Shown here: positions 10,949 through 61,929 of the stretch, piece after piece | How the letters are laid out: each line of letters opens with the position of its first letter | Numbering within the stretch: position 1 is the stretch's first letter | Assembly: GCA_951828515.1 (NCBI GenBank) | Contig: OX639992.1 | Span: forward strand, 992,001 to 1,056,000 | Direction of reading: 5' to 3' | Source of the DNA: an uncultured Poribacteria bacterium | Lineage (GTDB): Bacteria; Poribacteria; WGA-4E; WGA-3G | Length of the DNA stretch: 64,000 nucleotides | Notes under the pieces: model-generated | The model's input: only the letters and a program-made list of their open reading frames with translations | What the model was told of the DNA's origin: nothing | The model's database searches: none | Translations under genes and position numbers: made by a program

Positions 10949-10994
10949 ACAACGGCTATCTGTAAGAAGTCTTGTATTCTTATCTGTGCAAACG

Positions 10995-11083
10995 TAAGCC
11001 CGTAACGAAGTGGAGGGCTGGCTCTACGTCGAGGAACGTCAATCGTGAAACCACGCTTACCGTCCCGCAAGGTAAATTAAAAA
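10995..11083 (+). repeat. Leader-type dispersed repeat, orphan copy
   Basis: Begins AGCCCGTAACGAAGTGGAGG and ends CCCGCAAGGTAAATTAAAA. This family usually abuts a start codon. Here it points at the 3' end of the convergent gene at 11085, so it has no gene to serve. Confidence 0.65.
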
Positions 11084-11084
11084 G

Positions 11085-12506
11085 CTATCGTGCGGTGTAA
11101 TTGGGTGCGAGTGGACATGTCCGAGAAAGTGCCAGCAGTGCGACGCGTGTCAACCCATGAATCAGGTACGCCGCTCCCATTTGCGACTCATACCAGTCAA
11201 TACCGGATGCGCCGAAGGGGAGTGCCTCTGGAAAATAGATGTCCAACACTGTTTCTGCCAATTCAATGCCGCCTTCCAACCACACCGATTCACCGGTGAT
11301 GTCGTAGAGATCAGCAAACAACTCAAGCGTGAGACCGGCATCGGATGCTGGAATCTTAAACCCTTCGGTGTGAACGCGATCGACCGGAAATTTCTCAGCA
11401 AGATAGGTGTTGCCGACCACGCGCGCCCATTCCATCAACTTCTCATTCTGCGTCAATCGCCATCCACCGAGACAAAGCACCGCCGTGCTACACACGGTTC
11501 CGGCACCGTAAACGCTCCCCCAAGCTGACATGCGCTCAAAAATCCGATTCGTCTCGCACTCGCAGAGACTGACGAATTCGCGGGTTTCAAGGTTGTGCGG
11601 TGCCGCGAGAAATCCGTCAATGTAAACCAAGCCGTATTGCCGCATCTGGTCTGCTAATTCCGGCAGGAATGATTCTATCAACGTTGCGGATTCGAGTAGA
11701 CTCACCCCTAACGAGGACGTCTGTGTGGGAGCGTTCTTCTCAAAAAACCGGTCAGCGTCTTTCGGTGAGCGGCTCTCAATACGCAAAAGTCCACGCGTAT
11801 CCCGTTTCTCCCACCAGTAATCGGTATATCTCTGAATCTGTTCCCGAATTTCAGGGCGTTGGTTTTGTGTATACGCGAACGCCAAATCGAAGATGTAAAA
11901 ACCTGAATGGCGTGGAAAATCGCATGCCCGAGCACCGCGAGCGAGATATGCTTTTATGTCAATGTTCGCATGCCGTATGTATTCAAGCCCGTCACCTTCT
12001 GTCCAATGATAATCCAACCCATCGGCAAAACTTTGGACACAGGCAGGGTTAAACGTATTCAGTTTCTGCCAGAGCCAGAGCGGGACTTTGCGGAGATGAT
12101 CGTGAATTGCCGCACCTCCTGTTGGGTTTCGCGAACATCCGACCCGTTCCTCAATGAGTTGCCAAAAGGAGTGTTCACCCCAAGCGAATAACCCTGTTGC
12201 TGTATTTGTGCAATTCTGGGCAAAGTGTTTCAGGTATCGATCGACAGCTTCAATGTATTCCGGCTTCGATTGGCTTTTAGCGAGTGCGTTCATCGTGGCA
12301 AGTAATGGTTCATCGTGAATCAAATTGGAGCCGAGATGTGCTCTATCGCCGTCCCGTTGCCCCGGAATCTTGGTCGGCTTCTCCATAAGCATATCGCCAG
12401 TTTGTGGATGCAGGATCGAGGGAAACAATCCGTTGTACGACTCGCTACTTTCGATAATCTGGTCGATAGCATTGCATATTTTAGTGATAATTGCTTCTGG
12501 GTTCAT
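11085..12506 (-). CDS. (alpha/alpha)6-barrel carbohydrate-active protein
   Basis: About 473 residues from the ATG at 12506; a GTG three codons upstream (12515) is an alternative, and GGAGGT precedes both. Alternating helical segments and aromatic strings (GLFAWGEHSFW, SGFYIFDLAFAY, SAWGSVYGAGTVC, DWYESQMGAAYLIHGL) fit the six-hairpin toroid of N-acylglucosamine-2-epimerase-like enzymes or pectate-lyase relatives. No signal peptide is seen, so it is probably cytoplasmic. Neighbouring sugar isomerases favour a role in uronate or sugar breakdown. The exact family is uncertain. Confidence 0.7.
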   Translation of the reverse strand: MNPEAIITKICNAIDQIIESSESYNGLFPSILHPQTGDMLMEKPTKIPGQRDGDRAHLGSNLIHDEPLLATMNALAKSQSKPEYIEAVDRYLKHFAQNCTNTATGLFAWGEHSFWQLIEERVGCSRNPTGGAAIHDHLRKVPLWLWQKLNTFNPACVQSFADGLDYHWTEGDGLEYIRHANIDIKAYLARGARACDFPRHSGFYIFDLAFAYTQNQRPEIREQIQRYTDYWWEKRDTRGLLRIESRSPKDADRFFEKNAPTQTSSLGVSLLESATLIESFLPELADQMRQYGLVYIDGFLAAPHNLETREFVSLCECETNRIFERMSAWGSVYGAGTVCSTAVLCLGGWRLTQNEKLMEWARVVGNTYLAEKFPVDRVHTEGFKIPASDAGLTLELFADLYDITGESVWLEGGIELAETVLDIYFPEALPFGASGIDWYESQMGAAYLIHGLTRVALLALSRTCPLAPNYTAR

Positions 12507-12612
12507 CGCAAACACGACCTCCGCCTCTGTTGAATGGGAAATATGGTATCATGAACGCGTTAATTGATCAAGTTCGGATAAGAACACGCGACAACCAGGG
12601 TCATTTGGCTCT

Positions 12613-18067: not shown

Positions 18068-18159
18068 GGTTATCTACTCCATTTTATTTCGTGCCGGTTC
18101 TTGATGGATCCGTCTCTACAAAACACAAACTGATAGTCTATGCTACAAAAACGCAGCCT

Positions 18160-18263
18160 GCAACAACGGCGCAGGGTTTTTGCTTGGGCGTTTCCCCTAG
18201 ATATACGGAGAAACACATGCATGCACAAACCCACCTGACCGAATCGCAAGGAAAATTAAAATT
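18160..18263 (+). repeat. Leader-type dispersed repeat, orphan copy
   Basis: Contains GCGCAGGGTTTTTGCTTGGG and ends TCGCAAGGAAAATTAAAA, the standard 3' end of the family. It runs into the 3' end of dtd, so it has no gene downstream in its own direction. Confidence 0.6.
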
Positions 18264-18705: not shown

Positions 18706-18812
18706 TTTTTAATTTTTCCTTGCGGGTTAAGTAGCGGGATTTCAGGCTTTGACGTTTTCTGTGTTCGAGCCGTCCTCCACTACGTTACGGACTACCGATT
18801 GGTTCACATCGG
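18706..18812 (-). repeat. Leader-type dispersed repeat supplying the dtd ribosome site
   Basis: On the minus strand it contains CCGTAACGTAGTGGAGGAC and ends CCGCAAGGAAAAATTAAAA immediately before the dtd ATG. Confidence 0.75.
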
Positions 18813-21034: not shown

Positions 21035-21114
21035 AACTTTTCCTTTTTTTAATTTCTCTTGCGGTTTGATGAAGTGGATTCGGGTATTCCCGTGCCTTTC
21101 CGTCCTGTGACCTT

Positions 21115-26168: not shown

Positions 26169-26453
26169 CTAAGGTTCGGTTAACTTCACGAGTTTTTCGA
26201 GAATATATTCAAACCTGAGATATGAGGTATGATATTCCATACCGGGGTAGGCAGGAAATTGTTGTGGAAACTGAATTACTCGCCAGCCATCTTGCATAGC
26301 CTCAACAACCGAATTATAGGGCGGTGTCTCGCTGTCCCCTGTGGTATGGCGTTTTTGACCGGTACCGTCGTACAGTGCCCAAGCAACAACGCCACTGTTC
26401 AAGTCGGGCGTATGCAGATGCAGCACGAGGAGTTGTTGTCTCAATTCAGACAT
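26169..26453 (-). CDS. Small conserved-looking protein of unknown function
   Basis: 94 residues, ATG behind CGCAAGGAAG. It has no signal or membrane segment. The sequence looks like a compact single domain with aromatic-rich strands (VVAWALYDGTGQ, DGWRVIQFPQ, YPGMEYHTSYLRFEYILEKL). I do not recognise the family. Leader-repeat sequence (26461-26600) lies directly upstream, supporting a real start. Confidence 0.6.
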   Translation of the reverse strand: MSELRQQLLVLHLHTPDLNSGVVAWALYDGTGQKRHTTGDSETPPYNSVVEAMQDGWRVIQFPQQFPAYPGMEYHTSYLRFEYILEKLVKLTEP

Positions 26454-26460
26454 ATTTTAC

Positions 26461-26600
26461 TTCTTCCTTGCGAATTTTTAATTTTCCCTTGTGGAGTCAC
26501 AACGGCCGTTTCGACTATCACGGACGTTCCTTAAACCTGAAGAAACACCCAAGCAAAAACCCCGCGCCGATGTTGCAGGCTATCGATTTGGTTTTGACGA
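26461..26600 (-). repeat. Leader-type dispersed repeat
   Basis: On the minus strand it includes GCGCGGGGTTTTTGCTTGGG and a CCACAAGGGAAAATTAAAA end, followed by a second CGCAAGGAAG just before the 94-residue gene. Confidence 0.6.
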
Positions 26601-28920: not shown

Positions 28921-29040
28921 TTTTCTAATTGTTCCTTGCGGTTCGGTCAAGTAGGGGGCTTAGGGTGTTCCTCAATTTCTGCAATTTCCCCAAGGAATTT
29001 CACGTTCCTGTCCGTATATCCGCTTTCCGCTTCGTTTCAA
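28921..29040 (-). repeat. Leader-type dispersed repeat supplying the hisB ribosome site
   Basis: Minus-strand 3' end ACCGCAAGGAACAATTAGAA abuts the hisB ATG. The upstream part has the family's GAAGCGGAAAGCGGATATAC variant. Confidence 0.65.
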
Positions 29041-29124
29041 GCTACCTACTTTTATTATACGCTTAAAAAAGGCTTTGAGCAACGCGAAATCTACCGTTCA
29101 TCCATGGAACGGGCGGTTTTGCTT

Positions 29125-31984: not shown

Positions 31985-32100
31985 ATGATTTCAATTTTAC
32001 CTTACGGTTAAACGATATGAGGTAAGACTTCGATGCTCTTTTCTCAGGAGTTGAAGAAACATCCAAGCAAAACCCTCCATTTCGTTACGGGTTTAGTTTT
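31985..32100 (-). repeat. Leader-type dispersed repeat, near full length
   Basis: Minus strand: CCGTAACGAAATGGAGGG, then TTTTGCTTGGATGTTTCTTC, ending ACCGTAAGGTAAAATTGAAA. The winged-helix gene starts shortly after with its own GGAGG. Confidence 0.7.
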
Positions 32101-32260
32101 CGCCTCTAACGTTGAACACACCTGAACCAATGCCTGGTGCGACTTGTGCCGAAATCGCTCAAGAAAACGAGGCGTTGACGCATAAGCCTTCGTATATATT
32201 ATAGTTGCTTTTGGTGAGGTTGTCAAGAACTAAGATTTGAGAACAAAGGCGTTTCGTTCG

Positions 32261-34310: not shown

Positions 34311-34952
34311 ATGTTTAACCTCTTTGATCCTAACAGTGACTTCCAAATTACAATGGGTTCAAACCTACCACACTGGTTTCAACCGCAAGCAACTTACTTT
34401 ATCACGTTCCGTACTGCGGACTCACTTCCTTCACACATCGTTCGACGATGGCACGCCGAACGATCAACATGGCTTGCGCAACACGGTATCGCTACTTCGA
34501 TGCCAGACTGGAAAGACAAACTGGCGGGACTTCCAGAAAAATTCCGTAAACAATTTCACGAAAACTTCTCACAGCAGTACATGGAATACCTTGACAAAGG
34601 AATTGGTGCATGTGTTCTGAGAAAACCCAAACTATCAAAGATCGTAGCAGACGCTTTATTATATTTTCATGGCAATCGCTACCATATAGGCGATTTTGTG
34701 ATTATGCCGAACCATGTTCACTTGTTGGTCTGCTTGTTGGGTAACACAGATATTCTGAAACAATGTCGCTCATGGAAAAGGTTTAGTGCTGGTAAAATTA
34801 ACAAAGTGCTTGGTAAAACTGGACGGTTTTGGCAGGAAGAGAGCTTCGATCATCTCGTACGCTCGCTTGAACAGTTCTATGCGATCCAGCAATATATACG
34901 AAACAATCCAAGCCATCTTCAAAGTAGTGATTACTTTCTGTATCAGATTTAA
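34311..34952 (+). CDS. REP-associated tyrosine transposase (RAYT, Y1 family)
   Basis: 213 residues. The Y1 transposase motifs are clear: FITFRTADSLP near the N-terminus, the HUH metal motif as MPNHVHLLV (about 138-146), and the helix with the nucleophilic Tyr in QFYAIQQYIRNNP. RAYTs nick and move single-stranded REP palindromes. Two REP units lie just before the gene and three just after it, the arrangement expected of an active RAYT-REP locus. More distant units occur at 10924, 50625 and 58571. Confidence 0.9.
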   Translation: MFNLFDPNSDFQITMGSNLPHWFQPQATYFITFRTADSLPSHIVRRWHAERSTWLAQHGIATSMPDWKDKLAGLPEKFRKQFHENFSQQYMEYLDKGIGACVLRKPKLSKIVADALLYFHGNRYHIGDFVIMPNHVHLLVCLLGNTDILKQCRSWKRFSAGKINKVLGKTGRFWQEESFDHLVRSLEQFYAIQQYIRNNPSHLQSSDYFLYQI

Positions 34953-36157: not shown

Positions 36158-36394
36158 TTAATCTGCGGCTTCACCGCGCTCCGATTTTGTGGACACAGGC
36201 TTCTGAGCAGGCGGTTCTGAATCGGCGAATTTGTACTTACCGGACTTACGCATTTCTTTTTCTACTTTTTGGTAGTAAGCGAGTAATCGGTTTAGGTCGT
36301 GTCCACATTTTTCTGAGATTTTGTAGCGCATTTCCCGAACTTCCTTAACGACTTCATTCATTTCTGGATTTAGAAGATCTTTGTTCTGTACCAT
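36158..36394 (-). CDS. Putative antitoxin partner of the PIN protein
   Basis: 78 residues, ATG just past the PIN gene stop, with GGAGG inside the PIN gene's last codons. The helical core EVVKEVREMRYKISEKCGHD, then LNRLLAYYQKVEKEM, resembles the short helical proteins paired with PIN toxins; the charged tail is disordered. It probably binds and neutralises the upstream PIN nuclease. Confidence 0.62.
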   Translation of the reverse strand: MVQNKDLLNPEMNEVVKEVREMRYKISEKCGHDLNRLLAYYQKVEKEMRKSGKYKFADSEPPAQKPVSTKSERGEAAD

Positions 36395-38995: not shown

Positions 38996-39438
38996 TCTTT
39001 AATTATACCTTGCGGAGGAGTGACGTGTTTTGAAACTTAGAGGTTTCCGCGTTCGAGCTGAAGAAGCTCCCAAGCAAAAACGCCTCCGCTTCGTTTTGGA
39101 CTAAGTTTTCGGTGCTATTTTAAAATCAGGATTTACGCAATTTTAACGGTAGCATGCTCTGTTAGATAGGGTTCTCGAAAAAACACAGATGGTCTGCTGA
39201 CACAAACTAAAAATCAGATGCTCGAAAGAATATCGTGCGTAAGTCCTATATTCCTTTAACTGCAAGGGACAATAAGAGTATTCTTCTTTTTTATAACCGC
39301 AGCCTGCAACACCGGCGCAGGCGACTCCTAAGGAGCACAGGTCAAATTCCAAATCCGCGTCCTTTAACCGCAAGGAACAATTAAAAGATAGCACAAGACG
39401 GCTTGAAATGCAAATCCGATGTATGCTACCATGTGAGC
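38996..39438. other. Divergent intergenic region with two leader repeats
   Basis: One leader-type repeat points to glgB (38996 to about 39105, minus) and one points right (about 39300-39385, plus, ending CCGCAAGGAACAATTAAAA) toward the secreted protein at 39439. No gene is seen between them. Confidence 0.6.
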
Positions 39439-48015: not shown

Positions 48016-49245
48016 TTAAAAACTTCGGCGCATTGCGTCTGCGGGAGCCATTTTCGAGACATACCGAGCAGGATACAGTCCCGCAATGATGGTGAAAACG
48101 AAAACTGCTATAGGATAAATGATGAACTGTTGAACCTCCAGAACCGGATAGATGAACTCCTGCATCGTCACACCCATCATTTCAATGCCGGTATAGTCGA
48201 TACCGATATATGCAAGTACTGCCGTCAGAACGAAACCGAGTATTGCTCCCAGCCCAATACTCACGAGCGCTAAGGCACCCGCCTCAAATAAGATGACACG
48301 CGCCATCCCGAAAGGACGGGTTCCAACGGCGCGTAACACGCCAAACTCAAACATTCGCTCATACAACGACATAAATAGTGTGTTGATAATACCAAAGACA
48401 ACCACTCCAAATAGGATGGCTCCCATGATATACTTGCTGTATTTTGTCATTTCCAATATCACTCTCAATTGCGACATAAGTTCCGTCCAACTTAATGCTT
48501 CGTTGCCGTGTCTGGAATACGCTTCCCAAAACGGTAGTGTCGGATCCTGTGCATAGGCAAGAGAAGTAAATTTAATCGCTATTTCATGGACCCCGTTCCC
48601 GAGAGCAAGCATCTCTTGCGCTTTTTCGATCCGAACGAACGCCATTCCGCTGTTCATTTCTTCACCCGCGAAGCGATAAATACCGGAAACTCGGAACATC
48701 TCTTGGGAAAGATCACCGCTTTCGACTTGCGCCACCGTCACGATCACCCGGTCCCCAAGTTCGATTTCTAAGGTTTCAGCGAGTTTCGCACCGATGACGA
48801 TATCACGGTTATTATCGTCTTCAAAATAGGCACCTTCGGTTATCGCATCATCAATTTGGGATAGAAATTTCTCTGTTGGTGGATGAACGCCGACGAGGTT
48901 AATCGCACTCACGCTTGCTGGAGACGTAATCATCCCAAAGGCGAGTGTCCTTTGTGTGAAATGCTCAACGATGTCTTCTTTAGCGAGACTCTCGGTCACT
49001 TCATCACGTGCCTGAATCGTTAATGAAACCTCTTGTGTGTCTCGAAAACCTTCCCGATGGATCTGTGCGTCGCCAAGGAAGGAGGCGGTAGCCGTCCGAA
49101 TCAAATTCTCCGCCATCCCGATCGTTAACGCATCAAAAAAAATCAGAGCAGCCAGACCGATACCGATCGCAACTGAGGCGATAAAGGTGCGGCGTTTATT
49201 CCGAAAGATATTTCTCCAGGCAAGTTTTACTAAAATCAACCACAT
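48016..49245 (-). CDS. ABC transporter permease (FtsX/MacB-like) 2
   Basis: 409 residues from the ATG at 49245. The frame runs to 49518, but a CCGCAAGGAAAATTAGGAAA leader sits just before 49245, and the protein then begins MWLILVKLAWRNIFRNKRRT, matching its partner. One N-terminal helix, a large periplasmic domain (about 45-270) and three C-terminal helices (YIMGAILFGVVVFGIINTLF, LVSIGLGAILGFVLTAVLAY, FIIYPIAVFVFTIIAGLYPA) are the FtsX layout. Paired with the other permease, it likely moves lipoproteins or lipids across the periplasm. Confidence 0.9.
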   Translation of the reverse strand: MWLILVKLAWRNIFRNKRRTFIASVAIGIGLAALIFFDALTIGMAENLIRTATASFLGDAQIHREGFRDTQEVSLTIQARDEVTESLAKEDIVEHFTQRTLAFGMITSPASVSAINLVGVHPPTEKFLSQIDDAITEGAYFEDDNNRDIVIGAKLAETLEIELGDRVIVTVAQVESGDLSQEMFRVSGIYRFAGEEMNSGMAFVRIEKAQEMLALGNGVHEIAIKFTSLAYAQDPTLPFWEAYSRHGNEALSWTELMSQLRVILEMTKYSKYIMGAILFGVVVFGIINTLFMSLYERMFEFGVLRAVGTRPFGMARVILFEAGALALVSIGLGAILGFVLTAVLAYIGIDYTGIEMMGVTMQEFIYPVLEVQQFIIYPIAVFVFTIIAGLYPARYVSKMAPADAMRRSF

Positions 49246-49406
49246 TTTCCTAATTTTCCTTGCGGTTCGGTTATAGTGGCTATCGGCTATCGGAACTTGG
49301 TTGGAAGAAAGGAAGGACGAGTGCCTCCCAATCTTCCACCCTCCCAACCGAGTTCTTCCATTCCAGTCTTTTGCTGACTGCCGATTGCTGACTGCTGAAA
49401 GCCATA

Positions 49407-51602: not shown

Positions 51603-51928
51603 TCTTCTTCCCCGTGATAAGGGGAGTTAGGTACGGAACTGGGAAACTGAAAGGGTGGGCAGCTGACGACTATTCCGTAGGAACAACCTCCTGGTCGTGA
51701 TACCTCACATAAAATCAACAGAATCGGGAACCATATGTCTCTCGCTTCCATTCAAGGCTGTTTAGTTCTTCGTTTTTTTACGCGTTTTTGATCCGCCAGC
51801 CCGGTAGGTGCGGTTTCCCAACCAGGGTTCCCACCCGTTACTGGGAAGGGACACCGGATCGCCCAAAAAAGGCGTGAAATCTGATAATTTCCTAAAACTA
51901 AATGCCTCCAACTTCTACTAAAATTCGG

Positions 51929-51958
51929 TTGACATCTGTTCACCTTGCATGGTATCAT
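51929..51958 (+). promoter_or_regulatory. Sigma-70 promoter of the TPR-recognition cassette
   Basis: TTGACA at 51929-51934, an 18-base spacer, TATCAT at 51953-51958. Transcription would start near 51965, about 30 bases before the ATG at 51995, which has GGAGGA. This rules out the upstream ATG at 51902. Confidence 0.78.
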
Positions 51959-51994
51959 TACCCCCAAGTAAATTGTATTGCGGAGGAACAGGTA

Positions 51995-54439
51995 ATGCTA
52001 GGATTGAACCAAACGCTTGCTAATCCTTTTTATAGTTATAGTTTTGCTTATGGAAACGAGGATAAAGAAGCCGAGGGATATAATAACAGCGGCATTGCTT
52101 ACATCAAAAGAAATGAACTTGAGCAAGCAATCGCATCCTTTAGCAAGGCAATGGAATTGGATCCAAGGTACGCTGATGCCTATTGTAATCGTGGTGTTGT
52201 TTACTACTTCAAAGGCGAGTATGAAAAAGCAATTATGGACTATAACGAGGCGATTGAATTGGATCCGCGCCATGTCGTTACCTACAACAACCGAGGGGTC
52301 GCTTACAGCAATGAAGGTGAACAAGAAAAGGCTATTGGAGATTTTACAAGAGCGATAGAGATTAAATCTGATTATGCTGATGCCTATAATAATCGCGGTA
52401 ATGCTTATGGCAATAAGGGCGAATATGACAGAGCAATTACAGATTATACGAAAGCAATAGAACTCAAAGTTAACTATGCTGAAGCTTATCACAACCGCGG
52501 TAACGCCTATGGTAATAAGTCCGAATATGAAAAAGCGATTGCAAACTATACGAAAGCAATAGAACTCAATACTAAGTTTGCTGATGCTTATCACAATCGC
52601 GCGGTAGCTTACTACAATAGAATGGATTTTGGCAGTGCTATCAAAAATTATACCAAAGCAATAGAACTCAAACCGGATGATGCTAGTGCCTATTATAACC
52701 GTAGCATTGTCTACACGGAAAAGGATAACTTTGATCTTGCTATCCAAGATTCTGCCAGAGCAATAGAACTAAATCCAAATTTTGCCGAAGCCTATCACAA
52801 TCGAGGTGTGGCATACGCGAAAAAGGGCAATTATGATTTTGCCATCAAAGACTATACGAAAGCAATTGAACTCAAACCTGAGTTTACCATCTATTACGAT
52901 CGTGGTCATGCCTATAACAATAAAGGCGATTATGACTGCGCCATCAAAGACTATACCAAAGCAGTAGAACTAAATCCAAATTTCGCCAGTGCCTATATCA
53001 ATCGCGGCAATATTTATAGCGATATAAGTGATTATGAGCGTGCCATTGAGGACTATACGAAAGCAATTAAACTAAACCTCAATCCCGCTGATGCCTACAA
53101 TAACCGTGGGGTAGTTTACGTCAAAAGAGATGACGTTACCCGTGCCTTGGAAGATTATACTAAGGCGATAGAACTAAATCCCAATCGCGATATACCCTAT
53201 TACAATCGCGGTGTGGTGTGGCTACACTTGCAGAAATGGGAGAAAGCTAAAACTGACCTGACCGCTGCTAAGAAAAAGGGTATGGATATCATCGCATCAT
53301 TCCGTGACGGTTACAAAAATGTTGAGGCTTATGAGAAACGATATCGCGTCAAGTTACCGGAAGACATCGCTCTCATGCTAACGCAACGCCGGCGGGATCG
53401 CTATCCGAAGTTACAAAAAGTGTTGGATGCCGATGGCAATCCTATTGAATCACCAAATGTGGTGAATTTACGCGCTCAGCTTCGCAATGCTGGCACGCCT
53501 TTAGGTGAGTACATCAAAACGAAACCGTCTTTCGGTATCAACACCGCACCAATCGAAGCGTTCATCGTAGACAAAGCGACGCGGGACAAACTCATTGCGG
53601 CGCATCCTTCATCCGCCGATATTTTGAAACCGTTTTTGCACGGGCAAGATCTAAGGCGTTGGCATGTTGACACGCCACTGCAGTGGCTTATCTTTGTCCA
53701 CCGCGGTATAGCGATAAATGACTATCCAGCAATCCTGAAGCACTTGGAAAAATACCGAGAATCTCTAAGCAAGCGAAAAGGCAAGCAGGAGTGGTATGAG
53801 CTGCCAGTATCTCTCAGAGATGCAGAGCGTTTTGCACAACCGAAACTGGTCTGCCCGGACACCTATAACCATCAGACTTTCGCTGTTGATACTGCCGGTT
53901 ATTATTACGGCAAAACCGCCTACCTTATCCCAACTGAGGAAACGTGGCTCTGTGGTCTCCTCAATTCCCGCACTGTGGAGTGGTTTTATTCGCAGGTGTC
54001 GAACCAATTGACGATTGATCCGCTTCGGGCACGTAGCGGTCATATACAACAGATTCCGATTCCCGACCTCACGTCAGCACAGAAGGCATTGATCGCCAAA
54101 CTCGTTGATTACCTAATCTATCTCCAGCAGCAGCCAACAACAGACAGCAAAGACTTAAAACATGCTCGTGATGCTATAATGCTCGGATATTTTGAACGGA
54201 TCATTGATGGCTTAATTTATGAGGCATATTTGCCTGAAGACCTGCACAAAGGAGATAAGCACTTCTTTCAACCGTTGCTGGAGGAACAATTGCCTTCATA
54301 TGCGGAAATTCAGGACGATAAAATGACCGTGTTACGAGACCTCTTTGAGCTACTATATGAAAGAACACATCTTGTTCGGCGCAACCTTTACTATCTGGAT
54401 AGTGTCAAAGTTGTCCGCATCATTCAGGATAGACTGTGA
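51995..54439 (+). CDS. TPR array fused to a type IIG restriction specificity domain
   Basis: 814 residues. Residues about 26-432 are twelve near-perfect 34-residue TPR units (AYNNRGNAYGNKGEYDRAI, then DYTKAIEL patterns). After a linker, about 480-700 match the TaqI_C/type IIG target-recognition region: AFIVDKATRDKLI, SADILKPFLHGQDLRRW, FAQPKLVCPD, then ETWLCGLLNSRTVEWFYSQV and HIQQIPIPDL. The last 110 residues have the FERIIDGLIYEAYLPE helical end of such enzymes. No methyltransferase motif (NPPY/F or FxGxG) and no nuclease motif is visible. The stop overlaps the next gene's GTG by four bases (GTGA). I infer a DNA-binding sensor built on TPRs. Confidence 0.8.
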   Translation: MLGLNQTLANPFYSYSFAYGNEDKEAEGYNNSGIAYIKRNELEQAIASFSKAMELDPRYADAYCNRGVVYYFKGEYEKAIMDYNEAIELDPRHVVTYNNRGVAYSNEGEQEKAIGDFTRAIEIKSDYADAYNNRGNAYGNKGEYDRAITDYTKAIELKVNYAEAYHNRGNAYGNKSEYEKAIANYTKAIELNTKFADAYHNRAVAYYNRMDFGSAIKNYTKAIELKPDDASAYYNRSIVYTEKDNFDLAIQDSARAIELNPNFAEAYHNRGVAYAKKGNYDFAIKDYTKAIELKPEFTIYYDRGHAYNNKGDYDCAIKDYTKAVELNPNFASAYINRGNIYSDISDYERAIEDYTKAIKLNLNPADAYNNRGVVYVKRDDVTRALEDYTKAIELNPNRDIPYYNRGVVWLHLQKWEKAKTDLTAAKKKGMDIIASFRDGYKNVEAYEKRYRVKLPEDIALMLTQRRRDRYPKLQKVLDADGNPIESPNVVNLRAQLRNAGTPLGEYIKTKPSFGINTAPIEAFIVDKATRDKLIAAHPSSADILKPFLHGQDLRRWHVDTPLQWLIFVHRGIAINDYPAILKHLEKYRESLSKRKGKQEWYELPVSLRDAERFAQPKLVCPDTYNHQTFAVDTAGYYYGKTAYLIPTEETWLCGLLNSRTVEWFYSQVSNQLTIDPLRARSGHIQQIPIPDLTSAQKALIAKLVDYLIYLQQQPTTDSKDLKHARDAIMLGYFERIIDGLIYEAYLPEDLHKGDKHFFQPLLEEQLPSYAEIQDDKMTVLRDLFELLYERTHLVRRNLYYLDSVKVVRIIQDRL

Positions 54440-55930: not shown

Positions 55931-56338
55931 ATGACAAAAGAACTCAATCAAGAGTGTGCCGAGACATATTACAATCGCGGGTTGGCTCATAGCAAAAAGG
56001 GCGCAGTTGAACTTGCTATTGAAGACTTTAACAAAGCGATAGCACTGAATCCAAATTTTGCCGAGGCGCATTACCAACGAGGTATTGCCTATCGCATAAA
56101 AGGCGATTATAAACTTGCCATCACAGACTATACCAAAGCGATAGAAATTGAACCCAATAATGCTGATGCCTATTACAGACGTAGCAGGGCTTGGTTACAC
56201 CTCGGAGAAGAGGAAAAAGCAAAATCTGATATGACAATCGCCAGCAGTATCGGGATAAACAGTAAAACAGCCTTAGACGAGATACTACGCGACTACGATC
56301 GCGCATGGAAAACCCTCGGCAACATTTCAGACATTTGA
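55931..56338 (+). CDS. Small TPR protein
   Basis: 135 residues with three TPR units (AETYYNRGLAHSKKGAVELA, AEAHYQRGIAYRIKGDYKLA, ADAYYRRSRAWLHLGEEEKA) and a short helical tail. ATG 40 bases after the ATPase stop, with AGAGAA upstream. The units resemble those of the 814-residue protein, including its last WLHL..WEKAK unit, so duplication is likely. It may compete with or bridge the larger TPR protein. Confidence 0.75.
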   Translation: MTKELNQECAETYYNRGLAHSKKGAVELAIEDFNKAIALNPNFAEAHYQRGIAYRIKGDYKLAITDYTKAIEIEPNNADAYYRRSRAWLHLGEEEKAKSDMTIASSIGINSKTALDEILRDYDRAWKTLGNISDI

Positions 56339-56818: not shown

Positions 56819-57327
56819 ATGTTTGTGCCTGTAGAAACGAAAGATGGTCAACGGTTGATGCCAATGCATGCTGCACGCGCAAGGAAACTTGTCGAGCGTG
56901 GAGAGGCAACACCTTATTTTAACAATGGTATATTTTGTATTAGACTCAACAAAGAACCTTCAGATAGAGAAACCCAAGATATTGCTGTTGGTGTGGATCC
57001 TGGTAGTAAGAAGGAAGGTTTTACGGTAAAGTCGGAGAAACATACCTATTTGAATGTGCAGGCGGATGCTCACGATAAAGAAGGAACTTACACAGAGAAG
57101 TTGCCAAGAAAGGTGGTAAACGTCCACGATATGGCGGAACAAGATGTCTGGGTCGGACGAAAGGGACATTGGTTAGAAGTGTCCGGTGGGGATTATGTTG
57201 GATTAGTGGTCATCAAAAGGGTAAGATTAATCTTACACAGATGGAAACTGGTAAACAGAGACCTACACAAAAACCTGAGACTTTTCATTTACTGAAACGA
57301 CTCAATTTTAGGTACAAATCCGCCTAA
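56819..57327 (+). pseudogene. IscB-family RNA-guided nuclease, internally deleted
   Basis: N-terminal 90 residues read MFVPVETKDGQRLMPMHAAR, RKLVERGEATPYF, FCIRLN and AVGVDPGSKKEGFTVKS: the PLMP domain and first RuvC segment of IscB/IsrB proteins. After about 57070 the frame changes. In the new frame, residues ending at the stop at 57327 read KGGKRPRYGGTRC, KGTLVRSVRWGLCWISG and KGKINLTQMETGKQR, like the family's C-terminal target-interaction end. The bridge helix, RuvC-II/III and HNH parts are missing. Not a working nuclease. Confidence 0.7.
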
Positions 57328-58607: not shown

Positions 58608-59825
58608 ATGTTAGATTTTAAACCCCCCAAGCCGAATACGGCTCTCATTCAGGTTGCGAAAGGACTCGTCCCGTTTATCAACCGCTTGTTTTTGAAGGGG
58701 TTAACGCTGGATGTAGATGCAGAGTCCATTGCTCGTCTAAAAAAAGTAGATGGACATCCGACTGTATTAGCCCCGAATCACGCGGCGCGCGCCGATCCTG
58801 CTGTTATGTTCTGCTTGTCCAAACGGCTCTCTCAGCAGTACTACTATATGAGTGCACGCGAGAGCTATGGCAAAGGAAAATTCGATGGCTTACGCGGTTT
58901 TCTGATGCAACGGTTCGGGGCGTATTCCATCGTGCGTGGCACCGCCGACCGGAACGCATTCCGCACAACGCGGGAACTCCTGTCAAAAGGCAACTCGTCC
59001 CTTGTTATCTTCGCTGAAGGCGAAATCTCACGGCAGAATGATACTGTCATGCGCTTTGAAAGGGGTATTGTTCAGCTCTGCTTCTGGGCTGTGGACGATA
59101 TGGCGAAGGCGAGTGTTGATAAACCGCTGTATGTGGTTCCGATCGGGATCAAATACCATTATCCACAGGACATGTGGGGCGACATTGATGCCGCCCTCAC
59201 GGAATTGGAGCGGAACATTCTCCCATCTGCGGATCGAACGCCGATTGAACGTTACGAGCGGTTACGGCGTATCGGTGTCGCGATCTTCAAAACGCTTGCA
59301 ACTGAATATCAGTATAAAGTGGACGAGACCCTGCCACTTGATGTGCACATCCAGAAGCTGAAAGAGCAAATCTTGTCCCATGCTGAACAGATCATGGGTA
59401 TCCACTCTGAAGCGGATGTTCTCACGAGGGTGCGGGCGTTGAAAAATTTAGTCGATGCTGAAGTCTATAAAGACATTGAGCAGATGACGGAGTACGAACG
59501 GAAGATACATGAAGAACTGCTCCAGAAATTCCAACGATTCTATCCTGACCTGGAGCGGTTAATTAATTTTATAGCGATTTCAGATGGATATGTCGCAGAA
59601 GAACGCTCACCAGAGCGGTTTCTTGAAGTGATTGTGCGTCTGGAGAGAGAAGTCTTTGGTACGTCAAAAATTCGGGGACCGCGGGTCGCATCCGTCCGTG
59701 TTGGTGAACCCAAAAATCTCCGAGAATGTTACGATACCTACAAGGCACAGAAAAGAGAAACGGTGGAGCAGGTAACCCTTGAACTTGAAACAACCGTTCG
59801 GAGGTTAGTCACGGGTGCATCGTAA
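58608..59825 (+). CDS. PlsC-type acyltransferase
   Basis: 405 residues. Acyltransferase blocks: NHAARADPAVMF (the NHx4D catalytic pair, about 57-68), RGTADRNAFRTT (block II), VIFAEGEISRQND (FxEG block III, about 133-145) and VVPIGIKYHYP (block IV). A long helical C-terminal extension (about 220-405) is unusual for 1-acylglycerol-3-phosphate acyltransferases and may be a membrane-binding or partner domain. A degenerate REP-like string lies just upstream (58571-58596). Confidence 0.82.
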   Translation: MLDFKPPKPNTALIQVAKGLVPFINRLFLKGLTLDVDAESIARLKKVDGHPTVLAPNHAARADPAVMFCLSKRLSQQYYYMSARESYGKGKFDGLRGFLMQRFGAYSIVRGTADRNAFRTTRELLSKGNSSLVIFAEGEISRQNDTVMRFERGIVQLCFWAVDDMAKASVDKPLYVVPIGIKYHYPQDMWGDIDAALTELERNILPSADRTPIERYERLRRIGVAIFKTLATEYQYKVDETLPLDVHIQKLKEQILSHAEQIMGIHSEADVLTRVRALKNLVDAEVYKDIEQMTEYERKIHEELLQKFQRFYPDLERLINFIAISDGYVAEERSPERFLEVIVRLEREVFGTSKIRGPRVASVRVGEPKNLRECYDTYKAQKRETVEQVTLELETTVRRLVTGAS

Positions 59826-59844
59826 TTACGTTATAACACGAAAC

Positions 59845-59937
59845 CCGTAGCCCGTAATGAAATGGAGGGCGACTCTATAGAGTAGGATGTCAAAGTTCTC
59901 ACCTGCGTCGTTCCTCCGCAAGGTAAAATTAAAAGGG
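59845..59937 (+). repeat. Leader-type dispersed repeat before the isomerase at 59946
   Basis: Begins CCCGTAGCCCGTAATGAAAT and ends CCGCAAGGTAAAATTAAAA, followed by GGGAGAAAAAC and the ATG. Confidence 0.75.
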
Positions 59938-59945
59938 AGAAAAAC

Positions 59946-60860
59946 ATGGCAAAAAAATTGTCGATTGGAAGTTGGGCGTATGCCTTTGGTCCCTATGAAG
60001 AGAATCCTATTCCGTTTGATACCGTCGTCAAGACGCTCAGCGAACTTGAATTCGATGGTATTGAAATCGGGGCGTTTAAACCGCATATCGACATTAACGA
60101 TTATCCGATGAAAAGCGACCGAGATGCCGTTAGAGGTTTGATTTCCTATTACGGCTTGGAAGTCTCTGGATTAGCCGCTGACTTCTGGTCGCACCCGGGT
60201 CCCGCTACGGATGAGGGGCAAGAAGACGATAGATACTACAAATTGTTCAAAGAGAGTCTCCAACTCGCCCTTGACCTCGGATCGCCTGCGATTCGTGTGG
60301 ATACAGTGGATGATCCCGAAAAAGGGATTCCTGGCGTTGAGCCTGAGAAAGCCTGGGATCGGATCGTCTCCGTCTGGAGACGCTGTGCACAAGTCGCCGA
60401 AGATCACGGTGTGTTGATGCTCTGGGAATTTGAACCCGGATTTATGTTCAACAAACCCAGCGACATTGTCAATATGCCACAGGCAGTGGGTCATCCCAAT
60501 TTCCAGGTGATGTTTGATACCTGTCATGCACAAATGTGTGCAGTTGTCGGTGCCCGGCAGCCCGGAGAGCAGGAGATCCTCGGCGATAATGGGGTCATTG
60601 ACCTGGCACGTCAGTTAAAAGGACAGATCGGTCACTTCCACCTCATTGATTCCGACAACACGCTCCATGGCGACGAAACAAGCACCCACGCACCTTTCGG
60701 AGACGGTGTGCTTGATTTTGACGCGATTATTCCGGTCATCATGGATGAGACTGGGTACGACGGTGATTGGTTCTCTATTGATCTCTGTTTCTGGCCCAAC
60801 GCGTGGGATGTCACGGAAGACGCAAAGAAATTCCTGACCCCCTATTTGGAACGGTATTAA
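59946..60860 (+). CDS. Sugar phosphate isomerase/epimerase (TIM barrel)
   Basis: 304 residues. Opening KLSIGSWAYAFG and SELEFDGIEIGAF; then GVLMLWEFEPGFMFN with the Glu ligand, VMFDTCHAQMCAVVG with Asp and His, QIGHFHLIDSDNTLHG with His, and GYDGDWFSIDLCFW with the last Glu/Asp site. All four metal ligands are present, so it is probably active. Closest in type to hydroxypyruvate-isomerase/inosose epimerase relatives. The leader repeat supplies part of its translation start. Confidence 0.85.
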   Translation: MAKKLSIGSWAYAFGPYEENPIPFDTVVKTLSELEFDGIEIGAFKPHIDINDYPMKSDRDAVRGLISYYGLEVSGLAADFWSHPGPATDEGQEDDRYYKLFKESLQLALDLGSPAIRVDTVDDPEKGIPGVEPEKAWDRIVSVWRRCAQVAEDHGVLMLWEFEPGFMFNKPSDIVNMPQAVGHPNFQVMFDTCHAQMCAVVGARQPGEQEILGDNGVIDLARQLKGQIGHFHLIDSDNTLHGDETSTHAPFGDGVLDFDAIIPVIMDETGYDGDWFSIDLCFWPNAWDVTEDAKKFLTPYLERY

Positions 60861-60994
60861 GGCTTTTCCTTTCTGGACACTGGGTCTGTGTGCCATCACA
60901 TTACGCGCAGGTTCTGGGTTAAATCGCCAGGGCTTGTCGTATAATTTGTATAGGGTCGAGATCCCTCGCCCCTATATGTAGGTTTAACGAAACC

Positions 60995-61083
60995 ATAGCC
61001 CGTAAGCGTAGCGGAGGGCGGATCTACGGAGAGGATCGTTGGTCATGCTACTTACCTGACCGACCCGCAAGGTATAATTAAAA
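60995..61083 (+). repeat. Leader-type dispersed repeat abutting nadC
   Basis: GCCCGTAAGCGTAGCGGAGG through CCCGCAAGGTATAATTAAAA directly to the nadC ATG at 61084. Confidence 0.78.
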
Positions 61084-61929
61084 ATGCTCAATCTGCGTTC
61101 ATTAGATCCCCTAATTGACTTGGCCTTTGAAGAAGATATCGGCATCGGTGATATAACGACAGAAGCAACAGTGCCACCTACACAGGAGAGTATAGGAACC
61201 CTACTTGCCAAAAGTGACGGCATTGTCGCAGGATTGCCGGTCGCCGAACGAGTCTTCGCAAAATTAGATGAGACATTGTTGTTTCGTGCGCTCGTCACGG
61301 ATGGGGACGCAGTGAAGGCGGATACACCGATTGCTGAGGTCCAAGGGAGTGCCAAAACCATTCTGATGGGTGAACGGACTGCTCTTAATTTCCTGCAACG
61401 GCTCTCCGGTATAGCGACACTCACCGCACAATTTGTTGCGACAGTCGCCGACTATGATACCAAAATAGTAGATACTCGGAAGACTGCCGCCGGATGGCGG
61501 GCGGTTCAGAAATATGCTGTGCATGTCGGTGGCGCGCAAAATCATCGCTTTGGACTTTATGACGGTGTGTTGATTAAGGATAACCACATCGTCGCTGCTG
61601 GGGGTATTGGCAACGCCGTGCGGCGAGCACGGCAGGTTGTCCCACACACAGCAAAGATTGAGGTTGAAGTTGAAACCGTCGAACAGGTCAACGAAGCACT
61701 AAAAGCAGGAGCGGACATCTTACTCCTTGACAACATGCCTCCGAACATTATGGAGCGTGTTGTGCATGAAGTGGGAGACCGCGCAGTGACGGAAGCCTCC
61801 GGTGGTATTACACTTGAGCAAGTGAAAACCGTGGCGGCAACCGGCGTAAATCTCATCTCTGTCGGGGCATTGACGCATTCAGCGATGCCGATGGATATTA
61901 GTCTGACGCTGACGCTCATTGCTGGATAA
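61084..61929 (+). CDS. nadC: Nicotinate-nucleotide pyrophosphorylase (carboxylating)
   Basis: 281 residues, the typical length. EEDIGIGDITTEATVP, then AERTALNFLQRLSGIAT-like ERTALNFLQRLSGIA, DTRKTAAGWRAVQKYAVHVG, NHRFGLYDGVLIKDNHI, IEVEVETVEQ, LLLDNMPP and TEASGGIT contain the quinolinate and PRPP-binding Arg/Lys/Glu/Asp set. The DTRKT string reads TAAGWRA where TPGLRA is commonest, a mild variant. Makes nicotinate mononucleotide in NAD synthesis; no nadA/nadB nearby. Confidence 0.95.
   Translation: MLNLRSLDPLIDLAFEEDIGIGDITTEATVPPTQESIGTLLAKSDGIVAGLPVAERVFAKLDETLLFRALVTDGDAVKADTPIAEVQGSAKTILMGERTALNFLQRLSGIATLTAQFVATVADYDTKIVDTRKTAAGWRAVQKYAVHVGGAQNHRFGLYDGVLIKDNHIVAAGGIGNAVRRARQVVPHTAKIEVEVETVEQVNEALKAGADILLLDNMPPNIMERVVHEVGDRAVTEASGGITLEQVKTVAATGVNLISVGALTHSAMPMDISLTLTLIAG

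Follow-up and report, generated by a model that had tools for sequence, protein, structure and literature searches.

A dispersed repeat that ends at start codons in Candidatus Poribacteria: a probable mobile element with a putative portable translation-initiation region

The source genome (G000) belongs to Candidatus Poribacteria, uncultured symbionts of sponges, and comprises 5.85 Mb in one contig. The window analyzed is the 64-kb stretch at positions 992001-1056000 of this contig. Copies of a dispersed repeat lie along it, several of them directly against the start codons of genes such as dtd, hisB and nadC. A sequence-only reading had placed the repeat at about a dozen positions, and the family was found at all 12 of these; ten copies have both body and tail, and the two at 21046 and 49243 are 5'-truncated. 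Searching the window with the pattern CCGCAAGGTAAAATTAAAA, with up to 3 mismatches, gave 9 matches where 0.03 are expected by chance.

The tail ends 0-2 nt before the ATG at dtd, hisB, a small ORF at 26453, a glgB-type gene and nadC. At dtd (Pfam Tyr_Deacylase) a full element on the minus strand, 18707..18800, ends in its tail, followed by a single A and the ATG (18705). The minus-strand element 28923..29055 has its tail 2 nt from the ATG (28920) of hisB (Pfam IGPD), and that at 38997..39118(-) has its tail 1 nt from ATG 38995 of a glgB-type alpha-amylase with CBM48, a site that is empty in the relatives G018 and G041. The tail of a full element at 60987..61083(+) lies directly against the nadC ATG (61084). 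The element at 26455..26597(-) has an insert in its hairpin and a pair of tails spaced by 21 nt, the second of them 1 nt from ATG 26453; a 5'-truncated element (AACCGAACCGCAAGGAAAATTAGGAAA), 49243..49272(-), adjoins ATG 49246. Three more copies stop short of an ATG by 11-18 nt, and a native-looking SD occupies the gap. The first, 21046..21103(-), matches HMM positions 52-108 only and lies 11 nt upstream of ATG 21034, the gene's own AAGG intervening. The second, 31989..32106(-), lies 18 nt upstream of ATG 31970 of a DUF2582 ORF that retains its native GGAGG. The third is a full element, 59834..59934(+), 11 nt upstream of ATG 59946 of a TIM-barrel ORF. The AAGG end before an ATG, as described by the sequence-only reading, thus holds for dtd, hisB, the glgB-type gene and nadC, but the gene after 21046 is not evidently the permease it was taken for; it has no Pfam match and looks like a lipoprotein.

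The remaining three copies in the window (10995, 18160 and 39370) face no start. The full element at 10975..11083(+), identified by HMM match and alignment, has no start codon behind it and its tail adjoins the 3' end of the convergent ORF 11085-12515(-); it is present also in G042 and missing in G023. The full element at 18146..18262(+) is inverted relative to dtd and sits on its stop codon, the end of the tail providing the TAA; in relatives that lack this element dtd stops with TGA. Both had been correctly called orphans. The third, a full element at 39284..39386(+), has no start codon within 40 nt and is missing in G042. Other repeats also occur in the window. A second dispersed repeat, with ends GGACTTACGCA / TGCGTAAGTCC, lies at 36242(+), 39129(+), 39236(-) and 46272(-), and in G008 a copy of it has inserted into the dtd leader, immediately 5' of the AAGG. 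Intergenic CAGTCAGCAATC repeats occur at 572, 10063, 13668, 26599, 42805 and 49383, all on the minus strand and some just 5' of the element. A 102-bp tandem repeat with a TPR-like consensus occupies 52373-52601 within ORF 51902-54439.

Alignment of copies showed a unit of about 105 nt, consisting of a weak AAAACC lead, a GTAG-like foot with a covarying hairpin, a linker of about 45 nt and the tail GCAAGGTAAAATTAAAA. The linker is of two types, with ends CACCTGACCGAACC or ACGTCGTTTCTCC. The hairpin occurs as GCCTGC..GCAGGC, as GCCCG..GGGC and in further variants; the GTAACGAAGTGGAGG-like body, by which the family had initially been described, is present but is merely one of these variants, and GCCTGCAACAACGGCGCAGGC is at least equally common. 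Truncation at the 5' end is frequent, and a second tail, 21 nt from the first, is present in some copies. In the four outer stem pairs of 41 copies, 35 cells had both partners changed and none just one, a signal that was lost when the partner columns were slid or shuffled. The GTAG foot, present in 21 of the 41 copies, contributes its last G to the stem as the first paired base; the outer GTAG/CTAC helix is formed in part only (61% of cells). The four outer pairs have no G-U intermediates, so a hairpin that matters as DNA fits at least as well as one that matters as RNA; the inner 14-25 pair, however, is U-G in one subfamily. A nested small unit, TTTTTGCTTGGGTGTTTC(TGCGTATTTCTGCGGATT), is found in or beside the hairpin in either orientation, in the window at 18182(+), 26542(-) and 32056(-) and also in two further stretches.

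Genome-wide, the tail motif with up to 2 mismatches has 430 matches (201 on the plus and 229 on the minus strand), compared with a single match for the reversed control, and 66 of 84 bodies lie outside ORFs of at least 100 aa. Homology upstream mostly ends about 80-110 nt before the tail, which gives no sign of a longer parent element. No terminal inverted repeats were seen in the alignments inspected, as the 5' AAAACCGTAGCC and the 3' GGTAAAATTAAAA do not match. The Rfam covariance models gave no gathering-level match in the window, and none at E <=1 for the two copies at 59820-61100. The family was found by covariance model in all 38 genomes of the genus that were searched, two basal genomes having just 1 and 8 copies; model counts were read as presence or absence only. 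Outside the genus four of 32 genomes, all of the same family, were positive, with at least 18 matches in all, few of them strong. Tail counts range from 2 to 450, and a two-gene tree groups the genomes that have 280-450 copies in a single clade. Apart from the few outside matches in the same family, the repeat is restricted to one genus and is most abundant in that clade. Two genomes of the sister genus g11, G069 and G076, have 4 and 1 strong model matches and most other g11 genomes have none; these matches may come from horizontal transfer or from mis-binned contigs.

Placement relative to genes was determined with a body-only model, because the tail resembles a leader and a tail-only search could be circular. 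Positional statistics cover 1.04 Mb from G000 and a 243-kb stretch (0.24 Mb) from G042, with gene starts taken from ORFs. In G000, 64 copies so detected extend to the end of the body, and 27 of them have an ATG 17-19 nt past the body that opens an ORF of at least 60 codons. The offset is sharp: 18 nt in 22 copies, 17 in three, 19 in two and 20-24 in none. Similarly, 14 of 34 copies in G042 have a start at 17-19 nt, ten of them at 18. A comparable ATG is found at 1.0% of random noncoding positions and on the 5' side of 1 of 75 bodies. The sequence-only reading had named two outcomes that would count against it, a lack of enrichment at start codons and leaders shared with relatives by descent, and neither check overturned it. 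The enrichment observed is extreme (binomial probability about 1e-36) and independent of any search with the RBS-like tail. With a single exception, the ATGs found at these offsets begin a long ORF, showing that the trinucleotide itself is not the target. About two copies in five are adjacent to a start codon, at a fixed distance.

The tail has features expected of a ribosome-binding site. Native leaders in this genome have AAGGAG about 6-8 nt from the ATG, and the AAGG of the tail, which is followed by an A-rich spacer, lies 11-13 nt before the ATG, a distance among the longest in the native spacing range. The 16S 3' end, ...GGATCACCTCCTTTCT, is canonical with the anti-SD CCTCCTT, so AAGG can pair with it; the pairing is about -4 to -5 kcal/mol, weaker than that of the native AAGGAG. 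The tail thus combines SD-anti-SD pairing with a usable spacing before start codons, and its position, spacing and pairing suggest that ribosomes may use its AAGG. The AAGG is kept in 60 of the 64 body-detected copies, including those that face no gene, and the tail therefore belongs to the element. That it is simply the ordinary leader of this genome was rejected: 34 of 664 genes of at least 150 aa have the tail adjoining the start, and just 13 of the 612 others have anything similar.

Relatives at about 87% identity contain orthologous loci in which the element is present, absent or partly deleted, the comparison of one locus with and without a copy that the sequence-only reading had called for. 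(Coordinates above 64000 refer to the joined stretches G000:792001-1056000 or G042:C26.) The site at the DUF2582 ORF, which lies upstream of an 865-aa ORF, is filled in G000 and G008, has a remnant in G023 and is empty in G042, G016 and G041. G000 and G042 were compared over 230 kb of synteny, where several start codons have an element in just one of the two genomes; filled and empty pairs were found for starts 56991 and 56009 of G000 and 97754, 147160, 159344, 172430 and 236234 of G042. At 56009 of the G000 stretch, the native GGAGGCATGATGACGATG that G042 still has is missing, and the tail is followed by a TTG. At 159344 in G042 the native AAAGGAG is replaced by the element, and at 236234 the filled allele encodes a protein starting MQKTD compared with MEQNQKSD. 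At filled starts, then, native leaders are displaced or replaced and N-termini are altered by a few codons. At G042:C26 158562-158660, one flank of an inserted copy contains a 10-mer that recurs inverted in the other (ATCAGCAACG / CGTTGCTGAT), a single case.

Some of the leaders (those of the glgB-type gene and dtd, and the orphan at 10995) are common to relatives by descent, as the earlier reading had considered, but many orthologous starts are empty in close relatives or occupied by unrelated copies. Both G000 and G042 have an element at 20 sites. Six of these passed a strict same-copy test by body similarity, a few more look orthologous by eye, and at least five have clearly different copies, among them hisB, 61224 and 128748; different copies also occupy one start at 237719. 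At hisB, G016 has two elements in tandem, one of each type with the newer type beside the ATG, and G042 has an apparent fusion of the two types. Three states of dtd, lacking the element, with the tail only or with body plus tail, recur in different parts of the tree, and in G042 the old leader with GATGCRAGCAGT persists upstream of the inserted body with the gene intact. In the same genome GATGCRAGCAGT from the dtd start thereby flanks the element on either side, and no other clear target duplication was seen. Because the same dtd body spans deep branches, some start-codon copies are old and were inherited or exchanged. The family consists of hundreds of dispersed copies, gained and lost between related species. 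The filled and empty alleles, and the different copies at the same starts, support the earlier idea of a mobile leader in front of unrelated genes. That it installs translation signals there is suggested by position, spacing and the loss of native leaders.

Together, these features make it probable that the repeat is a non-autonomous mobile element of about 105 nt whose 3' end carries a portable translation-initiation region. The hairpin would be a handle recognized by a mobilizing factor and the tail would be the payload. Landing beside a start would sever the gene from its SD, and the element would supply a substitute at a workable spacing; at such sites the AAGG of the tail would act as the SD, taking over from the native one. 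Fresh copies would tend to land or survive right at the start codon, even on top of older copies. That copies landed more than once at the same starts, with one sharp offset, hints at both aim and selection. Against this explanation stand several observations: neither a transposase nor a parent element for the repeat was found, insertion boundaries are ragged on the 5' side with dtd in G042 as the one clear target duplication, the AAGG pairs more weakly than native sites and at a long spacing, and some copies at dtd are old. A stronger version, a self-domesticating transposable leader that prefers to insert at start codons, brings its own RBS, so enters a gene at its most vulnerable point without silencing it and rewires the translation of hundreds of genes, is put forward tentatively, as a somewhat doubtful extension.

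A reading that overlaps with this best explanation, and whose chance is a little short of even, has no targeting at all. Insertion would occur in any intergenic DNA and the start-codon class would be retained by selection, since only at such sites would an insertion that separates SD from ATG be rescued by the RBS-like tail. About 60% of copies do lie elsewhere, including at the 3' ends of genes and upstream of intact native SDs, and non-start ATGs are not chosen, which points to function rather than a sequence target. However, an offset of 18 nt in 22 of 64 copies with none at 20-24 is narrower than the spread of native SD spacing, and different copies recur at the same start across species.

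Movement of a REP-type element by a Y1 (RAYT/IS200-IS605) transposase is unlikely. The GTAG foot in 21 of 41 copies, the interchangeable stem pairs, the high copy number and the lack of general target duplication would all agree with it; tests of 81-98 copies at three window sizes gave no excess of target duplications over shuffled flanks and no excess of inverted flank copies. But none of six Y1 loci has an element within 1.5 kb, and Y1 gene number does not correlate with copy number (G012 has no genes and 280 copies, G021 five genes and 2 copies). ORF 34311-34952 in the window has a weak Y1 transposase match (PF01797, 28 bits) and itself has a match in the syntenic stretches of G042 and G016.

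It is quite improbable that the tail is a native RBS and that the hairpin body alone moves, joining existing AAGG-A-rich leaders. Empty dtd alleles (G016, G023, G001, G005, G010, G002) already have approximately AAGGAAAATTAAAA-ATG, and 124900 in G000 is tail-tail with the second body missing. Retention of the full tail by geneless copies largely contradicts this reading, and the empty alleles at 56991, 56009, 64752, 97754, 147160, 159344 and 236234 have no tail. An ancient, non-mobile regulatory leader of a regulon, common by descent, would explain why several species have the glgB-type and dtd leaders and why the hairpin covaries; the filled and empty pairs refute it as the sole explanation, and the inverted orphans, the lack of relation among the genes, the birth of the family at genus level, the unrelated copies that occupy orthologous sites and the lack of an Rfam match leave it highly improbable. 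A SINE-like retroelement, 5'-truncated by target-primed reverse transcription, is strongly disfavored and least probable of all, because the genome has no reverse transcriptase (PF00078, RVT_1, 0 matches) and target duplications are not general, despite the variable 5' truncation, the conserved A-rich 3' tail and one long target duplication.

For a mobile repeat of the kind proposed here, one that supplies an RBS or portable translation start, no earlier account was found in the open literature searched, nor was one found for the Poribacteria repeat itself. If true, a repeat that brings a translation start, at a fixed distance before the ATG in about 5% of sampled genes, would represent a new route by which selfish DNA avoids harm, and protein output would be retuned with species differences at many genes. 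The filled and empty pairs make aimed insertion versus selection directly testable.

Three groups of known repeats are comparable. The TAACTGA direct repeats of marine Beggiatoaceae, for which a translational role was proposed, are likewise dispersed, and their largest class ends 1 nt before start codons, in the place of the SD (MacGregor 2015, PMC4679880). They are tandem heptamers with little SD character (PMC4679880), whereas the Poribacteria repeat is a unit of about 105 nt with a hairpin, an AAGG and filled and empty alleles. REP/GTAG palindromes have the same GTAG-like foot, a short hairpin with exchangeable stem bases and hundreds of intergenic copies (PMC3733652, PMC2817692, PMC8266576). 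The Poribacteria repeat shares the copy number above 100 and the mostly extragenic location (430 tails; 66 of 84 bodies) and differs in its length of about 105 nt, its conserved RBS-like 3' part and its exact start-codon placement. In REP elements the GTAG or a close variant is unpaired beside the palindrome and RAYT genes are flanked by repeats, whereas here about half of the copies have the GTAG, its last G is paired and no such flanking is seen. MITEs and other small mobile sequences (Correia, ERIC, YPAL/RU-2, BOX/RUP) are likewise small and non-autonomous, some with filled and empty sites and altered expression of neighbors; they typically have terminal inverted repeats and act via promoters, RNA stability or new ORFs (PMC2229807, PMC3049150). 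In contrast, the Poribacteria repeat has no evident terminal inverted repeat or target duplication, and its payload would be a translation start. The repeat is thus placed outside the TAACTGA, REP and MITE families, and it is classed as a small mobile repeat in the broad sense only, with filled and empty alleles at orthologous sites.
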